A stretch of 64,000 bases of DNA from an uncultured Bacteroidaceae bacterium (GTDB lineage: Bacteria; Bacteroidota; Bacteroidia; Bacteroidales; Bacteroidaceae). Below, in pieces: positions 6,718 through 61,909 of this stretch; the first letter of the stretch is position 1, and each line of letters begins with the position of its first letter. The DNA lies in contig CALULY010000010.1 of assembly GCA_944321635.1 (NCBI GenBank), positions 1-64,000 of the forward strand, in the 5' to 3' direction. The notes under the pieces are model-generated. The model was not told the DNA's origin. It searched no databases and worked only from the letters and a program-made list of their open reading frames with translations. The position numbers and the translations under genes are program-made.

Positions 6718-6810
6718 GTTTGTTTTTAGTCTGAAAATACATATTTGCAAGTTAAATCTACATATTTGCAACCTAAAATTATATAGATTTACCCTAAAAA
6801 TAAACTTTTC
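6718..6810. repeat. Family B array, copy 2 (four 21-base units)
   Basis: Units start at 6718, 6739, 6760 and 6781 and end in AAACTTTTC. Sequence has drifted from copy 1 but the 21-base period, the four-unit count and the AAAAGTTT / ACTTTT edges are kept. It lies in the gap between the nqrA start and the rfbB terminator; the rest of that gap (6503-6875) holds only the nqr promoter. Confidence 0.8.
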
Positions 6811-10495: not shown

Positions 10496-10557
10496 CGAAA
10501 GCAATGTATAGCAACATAAGAACACGAGATAAATTCACCCTTGAAGCTGGTAAAAAT

Positions 10558-10645
10558 CATTGTATGCAACGGACGAAATCATTGTATGCAAACTGGAAAA
10601 ACATTGTATGTTTCCTCGGTTTGCATCGTATGCTTTTCGCAAAAC
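10558..10645. repeat. Family D array: four repeats spaced exactly 22 bases
   Basis: CATTGTATGCAAC at 10558, CATTGTATGCAAAC at 10580, CATTGTATGTTTC at 10602 and CATCGTATGCTTTTC at 10624 are each 22 bases apart. The array lies upstream of the rfbA promoter and downstream of the flippase-like gene, both on the minus strand. Only copy of this family in the window. Confidence 0.75.
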
Positions 10646-15856: not shown

Positions 15857-15962
15857 CAGCCATCGGGCACGGCACACCGCACACCGCCACGGCCGCACAC
15901 GACGGTTTGGCAGCTACTTTCACTCCCCTATGACAGATGCAACAGATGCCAATTGAAAAGGG

Positions 15963-16036
15963 TCTTTTGTTATTGACAATAACAATGGTTGTAAGTGGCT
16001 ATAACAACCCTTGTTAGTCACACTATCAAAAGACAT
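15963..16036. repeat. Family A array, copy 1 (three 22-base units)
   Basis: Units start at 15967, 15989 and 16011. Each resembles TTGTAAGTG-N-CTTACAA or TTGTTATTG-N-CAATAACAA, itself near-palindromic. The edges GTCTTTTG and CAAAAGAC are inverted copies. It lies between the convergent DUF349 and POT genes; the rest of the gap (15857-16188) shows nothing else. Confidence 0.85.
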
Positions 16037-23973: not shown

Positions 23974-24052
23974 GGGGTGCTTTGTAAGTGCGACTTACAA
24001 TCTTTGTAAGTGCCAGTTACAACCTTTGTAAGTGTGACTTACAAAGCACCCC
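23974..24052. repeat. Family A array, copy 2 (three 22-base units)
   Basis: Units start at 23982, 24004 and 24026, each close to TTGTAAGTGNNANTTACAA. The outer edges GGGGTGCTTTGTAAGT and ACTTACAAAGCACCCC are exact inverted complements, so the whole array could fold into one long hairpin. It lies between the ior operon terminator and the broken gene at 24125. Confidence 0.85.
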
Positions 24053-28719: not shown

Positions 28720-28798
28720 GTGCTTTGTAAGTCGCTATAACAACCTTTGTTAGTGGCAATAACAATGCTTGTTATTGCCACTAACAAAGGACATCTTT
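28720..28798. repeat. Family A array, copy 3 (three 22-base units)
   Basis: Units start at 28725, 28747 and 28769; the second and third form the inverted pair TTAGTGGCAATAACAA / TTGTTATTGCCACTAA. Edges GCTTTG and CAAAGGACATCTTTT recall copy 1. It sits between the start of the M6 protease gene and the end of rsmE; nothing else is seen in 28551-28872. Confidence 0.85.
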
Positions 28799-31590: not shown

Positions 31591-31790
31591 CCATCTAAAA
31601 GTTTGGCGACTAATAGTTCCGATAGAGTAAGTGCGAAAATGCTCACGTTGCAAGCGTGGGCTTTTTGGTCATTTTATCGGAACGGGTTACGCCAAACACC
31701 TTAGATGGAGAAATTACCAAAAAGTGCCGCGCTTCTTTTGTATATGTATCCTCCATCATCCAAAGGCACTGACGGCGTAACCCGAAAAGC
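31591..31790. repeat. Nested inverted-repeat region with internal terminator
   Basis: Arm 1 (31591-31624, CCATCTAAAAGTTTGGCG...GTTCCGATA) is an imperfect inverted copy of arm 2 (31675-31707). Arm 2 also pairs with arm 3 (31751-31784): CGGGTTACGCC at 31684 is the exact complement of GGCGTAACCCG at 31774, and AGTGCC at 31723 pairs with GGCACT at 31765. So arm 2 can pair upstream or downstream, not both. Between arms 1 and 2 is a terminator-like hairpin (31641-31662, GCTCACG/CGTGGGC) followed by TTTTTGG. The rest of the gap 31441-31856 shows nothing else. Confidence 0.7.
31641..31667 (+). terminator. Hairpin plus T run inside the inverted-repeat region
   Basis: A 7-base-pair stem (GCTCACG with CGTGGGC, one G-U pair) is followed by TTTTTGG. 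It could end a short RNA or attenuate transcription into the secreted-protein gene at 31857. Confidence 0.65.
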
Positions 31791-31856
31791 CGCGAAATGA
31801 GTAGGGAGAACCGTGCCGTGCGAAAAACCACACACAACGCACGACCGACAAAAACC

Positions 31857-33649: not shown

Positions 33650-34549
33650 ATGAAGAAGATCAGAGCAGCCGTCATCGGATACGGCAACATCGGGCACTAC
33701 ACCGTCGAGGCACTGCAAGCCGCGCCCGACTTTGAGATAGCAGGCATCGTGCGCCGCGCCGGCGACGCTGACAAACCGGCGGAACTCGCCCCCTACGCCG
33801 TGGTCAAGAGCATCAAGGAACTGGCCGATGTCGATGTGGCCATCCTCGCCACCCCCACGAGGAGCGTCGAGCAGCACGCCAAGGAGTGCCTCGCGCTCGG
33901 CATAAACACCGTGGACAGCTATGACATACACACCGGCATCGTCGCCCTACGCCGCTCGCTCGACGAGACGGCGCGGCAGCACGGCGCGGTGTCCATCATC
34001 TCCGCCGGATGGGATCCGGGCAGCGACTCCATCGTCAGGGCACTCATGCAAAGCCTCGCGCCCAAGGGCCTCACCTACACAAACTTCGGTCCGGGCATGA
34101 GCATGGGGCATACCGTGGCGGTCAAAGCCATCGAGGGTGTCAAGGCGGCCTTGTCGATGACCATACCACTTGGCACGGGCATACACCGCCGCATGGTCTA
34201 CGTCGAATTGCAAGACGGCTACACCCTCCAGCAAGTCACGGCGTCAATCAAGGCTGACCCCTACTTCGCCAACGACGAGACGCACGTCATGCAAGTCGAG
34301 TCCGTCGATGCGCTCAAGGACATGGGACATGGTGTCAACCTGACACGCAAAGGTGTCTCGGGCAAGACGCACGACCAGCTCTTTGAGTTCAACATGCACA
34401 TCAACAACCCTGCGCTCACGGCACAAGTCCTCGTCAACGTGGCACGCGCCTCGATGCGCCAACAGCCGGGATGCTACACCATGATCGAGATACCCGTCAT
34501 CGACATGCTCCCAGGCGACAGGGAGGAACTCATCGCGCACCTCGTCTGA
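33650..34549 (+). CDS. ddh: meso-Diaminopimelate dehydrogenase
   Basis: Makes meso-2,6-diaminopimelate in one reductive step from tetrahydrodipicolinate, NADPH and ammonia, feeding lysine and peptidoglycan synthesis. The 299-residue protein has the nucleotide-binding IGYGNIGHYTVEAL near 10, DSYDIHTGI near 90, SAGWDPGSDSIVRALM near 120 and FGPGMSMGHTVAVKAI near 148, all matching Ddh. Length is normal for the family. Single gene with its own terminator. Confidence 0.94.
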   Translation: MKKIRAAVIGYGNIGHYTVEALQAAPDFEIAGIVRRAGDADKPAELAPYAVVKSIKELADVDVAILATPTRSVEQHAKECLALGINTVDSYDIHTGIVALRRSLDETARQHGAVSIISAGWDPGSDSIVRALMQSLAPKGLTYTNFGPGMSMGHTVAVKAIEGVKAALSMTIPLGTGIHRRMVYVELQDGYTLQQVTASIKADPYFANDETHVMQVESVDALKDMGHGVNLTRKGVSGKTHDQLFEFNMHINNPALTAQVLVNVARASMRQQPGCYTMIEIPVIDMLPGDREELIAHLV

Positions 34550-34577
34550 CCCTCTGCCAGAAACGCACAAACACTGA

Positions 34578-34613
34578 GACCGCCCACCGCGACAGCGATG
34601 GGCGGTCTTGTTT
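34578..34613 (+). terminator. Terminator of ddh
   Basis: GACCGCCCACCGC (34578-34590) pairs with GCGATGGGCGGTC (34595-34607), followed by TTGTTTT. Confidence 0.9.
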
Positions 34614-34790
34614 TATCCATGCGGAGAAAATGCAAGGCCGCGCCGCTTTGTCCTGCTCGCCTTGTTTGTCCTGTTGCCGGTGCAGGGGGATGTATGGACG
34701 CAAAATGTTGCGCATCCACTGCTACGCGCGGCCATTCAATGGGACGGAGCATGAGGTAAACCCGATCAAGTCAGGCCTAAACCTCCGCCA

Positions 34791-34971
34791 CTCACCGGGG
34801 AAAGTTCAACAAGGTCAGGCCAAAAGTTCATTATCCCCTGACATTAAGTTCATTCAGAAGTTTTGTTTATATAAACAAAAGTTCTGTTTATACATTCAAA
34901 AGTTTTGTTTATACTTTATGTCAGACCTATTTGAACTTTATGTCAGACCTTGTTGAACTTTCCCCGGCGAG
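34791..34971. mobile_element. Family C element, copy 1: MITE-like, 26-base terminal inverted repeats
   Basis: Left end 34791-34816 (CTCACCGGGGAAAGTTCAAC...) and right end 34946-34971 are inverted copies with one mismatch in 26 bases. The core holds two full 21-base units (34856, 34877) and a 17-base partial (34898) of AGAAGTTTTGTTTATATAAAC type, between AAGTTCATT and TTTATGTCA. No ORF. It lies between the convergent ddh and clpC genes; I see no other feature in 34614-35033. Confidence 0.75.
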
Positions 34972-35033
34972 AGATGGAAATTTGTGTCAGACATCACGGG
35001 ACAGGAGCTTTGCCGCTGCCGTCAGGGGATAAG

Positions 35034-39111: not shown

Positions 39112-39204
39112 GTTTATTTTTAAGCTAAATTTATATGTTTGCAACCTGAATCTATATGTTTTTAGCTTAAAAACATATATTTTTAAGCTAAAAACAGACT
39201 TTAC
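39112..39204. repeat. Family B array, copy 3 (four 21-base units)
   Basis: Units start at 39112, 39133, 39154 and 39175 and end in AGACTTTAC; edges AAAAGTTT and ACTTTAC match copies 1 and 2. It lies between the divergent nucleotide-sugar dehydrogenase and arginine deiminase genes, outside both predicted promoters. Confidence 0.8.
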
Positions 39205-42692: not shown

Positions 42693-42939
42693 AATAATCC
42701 TTTATTTTTAAATGTTACACAATTTGTCGTCAGACACACCCCTTGCGAGGTTCACCATTGCCTTTGCCAAAAGCGTGCCATTGCGCCGCGAGGTGTCATT
42801 GCCGTGCCGTGCGTGACAAAGTGTCAGCAGTTTCTGCCAAAGGTGTTAACGGCCGCACGCACGCTTGTTGTTTTTGTCAGTCGGCGTGTGCCCGTTGGCG
42901 CGCCTGATGAGATGTGTGATTGCGGCAAGGTCGAATTTG

Positions 42940-43160
42940 ATGATGTCAGGCTCAAACTCCAATCGGGTTTGGTGTAAAATTCACTTGGGTCAGACCAAAA
43001 CTTCCATTGGGTCTGACATAAAGTAAAAACAAAAGTTCTGTTTATATATTCAGAACTTTTGTTTATATAAACAGAACTTTTGAATATATAAACAAAACTT
43101 CTGAATGAACTTTATGCCTGACATGATGGAACTTTACATCCTGCTTGATTGAAGTTTTCG
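42940..43160. mobile_element. Family C element, copy 2 (three full 21-base units)
   Basis: Opposite in orientation to copy 1. The core 43014-43117 contains a 17-base partial and three full 21-base units between TGACATAAAGT and AATGAACTTTATGC. These 104 bases are identical to 56603-56706. Outer parts (TTGGGTCTGACATAAAG and similar) echo the flanks of copies 1, 3 and 4 but terminal repeats are poorly kept. Confidence 0.75.
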
Positions 43161-43490
43161 TCAAGCTTCGCCCGATTTATCCCCCAACCTTCCCGCATTG
43201 AGCAACGCGCGTTGCTTGCATGGATGCCCGTCAAGTGCCTCCGCCACGTTGCGTGATGTCACCAAACACACATTGCAAGGCGGAAGAGAGATGTCATGCG
43301 CATCTACCAGCATACCATTATATATAAATAAAGGATGCATCATGGATGAGAGGCGTGCCTGGCATCCCGCACAAGCTCATAGTGACCTCAAGCGGTGGTG
43401 GCGCACATTCGCCAGCGACAGCCTGTCCTGCCGTCATGACGGACGGTTGCCGCGCAGACAGCAGCCAGGCAGATTGTGCGTGACATTCTA

Positions 43491-51880: not shown

Positions 51881-52081
51881 CGTCGTGCCCCGTTGGCGGA
51901 GTGGCGGAAATGCACCGCCATCCATCCATTCAAGTCAGTAAACGTGCAGTGACGCATCTCGTGCGTCCCCGCCTCGGCGGTGAACGTCCTGCGACAGCCC
52001 GGGATGCCGATGTGACGCGCACCATGCCTCCCGCGACATTCGCCCGGTGATTAGTCCTGATGGGATAAGGGACAAGGCGGA

Positions 52082-52225
52082 TGAGGTCTGACCTAAAGTC
52101 CGGTGCCTCGGTGCTTGAACTTCCATCAGGTCGAACCTAAAGTTGGATTGCCGGGTGCATAAAGTTCATTTAGAAGTTTTGTTTTTACTTTATGTCAAGG
52201 GGAAATGAACTTTTCCCGGCGAGCA
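52082..52225. mobile_element. Family C element, copy 3 (short form)
   Basis: Same orientation as copy 1 but the core is reduced to a single 17-base partial unit (52172-52188) between AAAGTTCATTT and TTTATGTCA. Flanks CGGTGCTTGAACTTC and GAACTTTTCCCGGCGAG recur in copy 4. The rest of 51881-52349 shows no gene or other structure I can support. Confidence 0.65.
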
Positions 52226-52349
52226 AGTGAAGTTTAGGCCTGACCTCATCGGTTTTTTGCCTTGACTTGGCGGCCGGAAGACAGTCTTTGCCATCCTGGC
52301 ATCGCTGGCTAAAACGGGATGTGTGGTGGGGAATTAGTCCATTAATCCA

Positions 52350-56521: not shown

Positions 56522-56765
56522 AAAATCAATGAAGTCTGACATAAAATCCACCCTCCCGGTGCTTGAACTTCAACCATTCACCGAGAAAAGTTCATTTCCT
56601 CTTGACATAAAGTAAAAACAAAAGTTCTGTTTATATATTCAGAACTTTTGTTTATATAAACAGAACTTTTGAATATATAAACAAAACTTCTGAATGAACT
56701 TTATGCACCGAGCAATCCAACTTTAGGTCCGGCATCGTGGAACTTTTCCCGGCGAGCGGTGGGAC
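56522..56765. mobile_element. Family C element, copy 4 (three full 21-base units)
   Basis: Core 56603-56706 is identical over 104 bases to copy 2. Ends CACCGAGAAAAGTTC (56579) and GAACTTTTCCCGGCGAG (near 56740) are an imperfect inverted pair like the terminal repeats of copy 1. It lies between the convergent trxA and RsmI-like genes; the rest of 56417-56900 shows nothing else. Confidence 0.75.
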
Positions 56766-56900
56766 TATATGTCATACATCACAGGGCATCCCCCTACCCT
56801 GTTTGGGCTGACAGCACGGCAAAGCGGTCGGCGCACATCGTGCACCGACGTTGGCCGTCCGCTGCCCGTGGTCAAATGCAGAGCCCGCAGCTGTGGACGG

Positions 56901-61834: not shown

Positions 61835-61909
61835 TCTTTTGTTAGTCGCTATAACAAAGGTTGTAAGTCTCTATAACAAGGTTTGTAAGTGTGACTTACA
61901 AAAGACCTC
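61835..61909. repeat. Family A array, copy 4 (three 22-base units)
   Basis: Units start at 61839, 61861 and 61883. Edges GTCTTTTG and CAAAAGAC match copy 1. It lies upstream of the TetR gene promoter and downstream of the NlpC/P60 gene. Confidence 0.85.

Follow-up and report, generated by a model that had tools for sequence, protein, structure and literature searches.

The DNA analyzed here (the window) is a 64,000-nucleotide stretch of the genome of an uncultured Bacteroidaceae bacterium and contains four copies of a dispersed repeat; the genes near these copies include those for diaminopimelate dehydrogenase, a Clp ATPase, GroEL, DnaN and DnaE. Copy 1 consists of a core of three 21-bp periods (34850..34912, forward strand; 63 bp), in which CNNAASTTNNG dyads alternate with TATA-type dyads, and of two arms of four 22-bp units each. 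The units of the left arm (34762..34849, forward strand) start at 34762, 34784, 34806 and 34828, and in each of them AAA[G/C]T or a variant of this sequence comes after a variable word, with the register and the conservation decay taken from 168-184 arms; the right arm (34913..35000, reverse strand) has the same four-unit structure in inverted orientation. The preliminary description of this locus reported an element of about 181 bases bounded by 26-base terminal inverted repeats. The inverted repeat, with its single mismatch, is indeed present (34791..34816 on the forward strand, with its partner at 34946..34971 on the reverse strand) but is not terminal: it is a mirror patch that spans arm units 3 and 2 and hence is internal to arms whose conservation falls outward, and the copy is longer than thought, extending roughly from 34762 to 35000. 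Nor is the copy literally free of open reading frames, as had been stated, given that a mechanically delineated frame of 161 amino acids (34471-34956, forward strand) overlaps it; its start lies within the diaminopimelate dehydrogenase gene, in a different frame, and it is unlikely to be a gene.

Copy 2 (42937..43196, reverse strand; 84-bp core at 43025-43108) is located between groEL and dnaN, at a site where the contig of a congener, the uncultured Bacteroidaceae bacterium CALNGU01 (hereinafter G003), departs from synteny. Copy 3 (52078..52274, forward strand) has a minimal core of 21 bp (52166-52186) and lies upstream of dnaE, which in G003 is preceded by a full 84-bp core, and copy 4 (56526..56785, reverse strand) has an 84-bp core at 56614-56697. 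The outer extents of these three copies are inferred, in copies 2 and 4 from the arm length. The measured cores of 63, 84, 21 and 84 bp agree with the previously reported two, three, zero and three full units plus a partial one, and the variable orientation holds as well, with copies found in both directions; the borders, in contrast, are not constant. In the window, the inverted repeat pattern is matched four times (0.01 expected) and the core unit motif 15 times (0.15 expected). Another repeat family in the window is built of 22-bp palindromic units (TTGTAAGTNNNACTTACAA-like), with roughly three units at each of the sites 15950-16030, 23980-24044, 28723-28787 and 61838-61890, and at 16.0, 24.0 and 61.8 kb the corresponding intergenic region of G003 carries an element of the same family with its own sequence. 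Further arrays of 21-22-bp units with other sequences are located at 6738-6777, 39153-39196 and 10547-10610. An Rfam scan of the window detected nothing at the element and only an unrelated DUF805b RNA motif above the gathering score (31772-31807, forward strand).

In the draft genome to which the window belongs (G000; 2.3 Mb in 38 contigs, about 94% complete), a search with a 206-bp query yielded 119 matches, several per element, and the arm pattern GTCNGACNTAAAGTTC with at most one mismatch was found 97 times compared to none for the reversed control. From the stretches around the copies, 84 to 85 elements with flanks were read. All these elements are one family, and the total number of copies, by our estimate, is probably near 100. 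The elements are scattered over the genome and lie between genes, with neighbors in tandem (41), divergent (22) or convergent (13) orientation and no clear pattern. The standard copy is an imperfect palindrome of about 260 bp, in which two inverted arms flank a core made up of at most four 21-bp units. Among 84 cores of G000, 57 are 84 bp long, 12 are 63 bp, seven are 21 bp and three are 42 bp, the others being singletons; in G003, 40 of the 50 cores have 84 bp. Thus, the number of units varies, as had been proposed, but instead of expansion and contraction, this variation is better described as shortening of a standard core of 84 bp, longer cores being singletons.

Alignment of 18 core sequences from three species (G000, G003 and the congener G001) shows that CNNAASTTNNG occurs four times at an exact spacing of 21 bp and is invariant, that the central TATA is nearly so, and that other bases change. 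Each arm, as judged from 168 arms anchored at the core border, comprises about four 22-bp units, in which a word (CCCGTACAT, CCTAATGAA, GTCTGACAT, CTCGGTGCAT, CTCGCCGGGAA and others) is followed by AAAGT or AAACT. The information content of the successive units, counted from the core, is 1.08, 0.86, 0.63 and 0.40 bits per position, and then 0.09 and 0.05, which is the opposite of what is seen at transposon ends. No sharp terminus was found across the examined arms: the outermost, cap-like unit is degenerate, with a word resembling GGGATAAGGGACAAAACC detected in 32 arms by direct pattern search. A terminal cap sought with an iterative profile was dropped after the profile drifted to ordinary arm units. 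Several arms (L018, L164, L165, L166 and L167) have a complete or partial copy of the palindrome GTAGAGACGCGATTAATCGCGTCTCTAC directly outside them.

Mirror patches with at least 25 of 26 matches at equal offset in the two arms are present in 7 of 82 elements of G000, compared to 1.0 expected from shuffled arms, and in 13 of 48 elements of G003, compared to 2.9 expected. The mean similarity of left and right arms is raised in G003 and not in G000; left-right word symmetry failed as a general property of the G000 elements, although near-exact patches exceed chance. At quasi-palindromes, template switching is a known process that copies sequence locally in mirror orientation and increases the perfection of the palindrome (PMC7202029), and switching between the arms is the putative cause of the patches observed here.

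Comparison with G003, a metagenome bin of about 140 contigs that shows about 85% identity to G000, reveals variation at single loci. Over 901 bp, the window differs from the G003 contig C106 (L048) solely by one exact 21-bp unit; this contig probably represents a strain-level or misbinned sequence because it is 98.7% identical to the window whereas the other compared G003 contigs are 84-88% identical. The elements at a further locus (L015/L059) have matching arms and cores whose lengths differ by one unit. At one collinear locus, the element is present in G003 (L065:791-854) and missing in G000 (C21:14736-15004), indicating that gain or loss also occurs. This is the only pair of occupied and empty sites that was seen, and its flanks are too diverged to define a target duplication; none was found elsewhere either, no end of the element being fixable.

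Many copies have the same neighboring genes in both species: at least one flank matches the flank of a G000 element in 39 of the 64 distinct G003 elements (one of these on C106), compared to a rough estimate of 20-30% flank matches under independent placement. Three loci (L015/L059, L148/L074 and L164/L080) are collinear on both sides and occupied in both species, whereas seven G003 elements (L064, L065, L067, L068, L094, L110 and L115) have flanks that match those of two different G000 elements; at L068, both blocks terminate at G000 elements (about C8:113.96 kb and C10:42.99 kb). In several G000/G003 pairs, the flank alignment enters the element and stops inside. The words of the inner arms are species-specific (CCCGTACAT, CCTAATGAA and GTCTGACAT in G000, CTCGGTGAGT and CGCCGAGA in G003), and orthologous arms, sought as a sign of stable inheritance, are clearly apparent only at L015/L059. 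Within G000, 11 pairs of arms are at least 84% identical, and in none of these does the similarity of the opposite arms exceed 73%. Taken together, the unmatched opposite arms, the non-orthologous arms, the species-specific words and the junctions between two elements point to exchange through the core. Since both genomes are draft assemblies and the junctions fall at repeats, these could be assembly chimeras, and part of the half-element sharing may be due to segmental duplication because in one set of elements (L018, L165, L166 and L167) the similarity can extend beyond the arm. In G003, collinear blocks also end at or close to GCATCNGATGC-like repeats (L125:17883 and L065:17434).

A profile of the core and the first arm unit was run against 200 other genomes of the family and 197 genomes from elsewhere in the phylum. 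It matched 25 of the former, so that 9 of 30 genera are represented (the window's own genus counted), and none of the latter. All 20 loci that were read back, two from G001 and the others from other genera, contain a tandem array with a 21-bp period, and the sequences of these arrays differ (e.g., ATCATAAGTTGTGAT, CAGCAGTGCCG and CCAAACTTTGG). In all groups, the core matches itself best at lag 21, partly by construction given that the profile selects 21-bp cores. No such selection applies to the spacing of the arms beyond one unit, for which the self-match is highest at lag 22 in the genus of the window and in g41 and g8, and at lag 23 in G145, with no clear peak in G125, G109/G180 and G067. 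The core is flanked by near-perfect inverted repeats in some relatives (L192 and L196). In G084 (L196, L197 and L198), 22-bp tandem repeats with an unrelated sequence make up the arms, and long, near-perfect inverted repeats adjoin the core. For G002, a weak match to the DNA query was unconvincing on reading, and the core model gave six weak matches. In the literature searched, no 21/22-bp repeat of this type was found to have been described for Bacteroidaceae.

The interpretation that we favor, with confidence and doubt in about equal measure, is that of a mosaic, mirror-symmetric repeat, akin to BOX, BIME and BrickBuilt, the copies of which evolve in concert by recombination. Under this model, near-identical cores would allow dispersed copies to recombine by gene conversion and crossing over, such that arms are swapped, with the inner units homogenized the most and the outer ones the least, and the chromosome is rearranged at the elements; 21-bp units would be lost by slippage or unequal exchange, and patches would pass from arm to arm by template switching within the palindrome. 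Gene conversion between copies is inferred here from sequence comparison. Transposition may account for the initial spread of the element, which may be mobile even now, although the patterns described here show no current transposition. The preliminary description favored a MITE-like element, that is, a non-autonomous transposable element with an internal minisatellite whose transposase is located elsewhere or has been lost. The element is noncoding, dispersed and modular, with a variable core, as had been described; the roughly 100 dispersed copies of standard full length, their occurrence in both orientations, the single presence/absence locus and the near-perfect inverted repeats in L192 and L196 would all fit, and BrickBuilt has been so interpreted (PMC4596501). 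However, the terminal inverted repeats that the label implies are not supported, with conservation decaying outward to no sharp end; opposite arms are not co-inherited; no target duplication is definable; and searches of the genome itself revealed no inverted arm pairs at a distance of 0.5-4 kb, as would be expected of an autonomous parent. As anticipated, no transposase explains the element, none with matching ends being found in the sequences searched, and viral contigs, phages and plasmids gave no match to the element. We consider the MITE interpretation unlikely, albeit not negligible. Spread of a REPIN/REP-type element by a RAYT (Y1 transposase) would account for intergenic, palindromic sequences with alternating orientation and high copy number, but appears extremely unlikely given that Y1_Tnp (PF01797) is matched in none of the five congeneric genomes (G000 being about 94% complete), compared to 5 of 14 control genomes. 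A role at the RNA level, as a terminator or structured transcript, is suggested by the self-complementarity and intergenic location of the element, and seems very unlikely considering that no Rfam family covers it, every orientation of the neighboring genes occurs, and left and right words are unmatched overall in G000.

The invariant 21-bp spacing of the CNNAASTTNNG dyads suggests that these are sites of a putative dimeric DNA-binding protein. The elements might accordingly be phased arrays of binding sites for a co-evolving, sequence-specific protein, architectural, regulatory or a recombinase, that maintains the 21/22-bp geometry: the four dyads are invariant in 18 sequences from three species, and other genera retain the 21-bp core spacing despite different dyads, with two of them retaining the 22-bp arm spacing as well. 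Recurrence across genera with altered sequence and constant core spacing is explained by such a protein no less well than by passive recombination. Nevertheless, no candidate protein was found, the orientation of neighboring genes is without clear pattern, and short 21-bp cores persist; this explanation, too, is on the whole improbable. A broader, tentative proposal, to which we assign a low but appreciable likelihood, is that of a Bacteroidaceae-wide class of elements defined by geometry and not by sequence (about four 21-bp dyad units and, in some genera, 22-bp mirror arms), with the sequence rewritten in each lineage along with a trans-acting partner, and serving as a genome-wide recombination site.

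Bacterial intergenic repeats are usually of the REP, BOX or MITE type. The family described here stands out in that sequence turnover between species and genera is set against exact core spacing, arms appear to be exchanged separately, and copies coincide with synteny breaks between species; if confirmed on closed genomes, it would offer a testable case of one repeat class driving both concerted evolution and chromosome rearrangement. BrickBuilt of Porphyromonas gingivalis consists of 23-nt direct repeat units in up to about 23 copies at 19 loci, with a leader and a tail that are unlike each other (PMC4596501). The present element is similarly an intergenic feature of Bacteroidales with a variable tandem unit of similar length and no transposase inside, but its 21-bp dyad units rarely exceed four, its mirror arms are built of 22-bp units, and it occupies about 100 loci, so that the BrickBuilt definition, a direct tandem repeat of 23 nt framed by leader and tail, does not apply. 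BOX of Streptococcus pneumoniae, with the layout boxA-(boxB)n-boxC, in which boxA and boxC are distinct modules (PMC3049150), is likewise modular and abundant, and the number of central modules enclosed by its border modules varies; compared by module description, the element departs from this layout in that its arms are inverted relatives with interchangeable words. BIME/REP, a mosaic of short palindromic units (PMC2817692), shares the extragenic location, alternating orientation, palindromic mosaic structure and about 100 or more copies, and differs from the present family with its fixed 21/22-bp geometry, 84-bp standard core and no RAYT found. A free minisatellite (VNTR) would vary in both directions without a preferred maximum, whereas here the mode is 84 bp and almost no cores are longer. 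The element thus resembles BrickBuilt, BOX and BIME without fully conforming to the definition of any of them.
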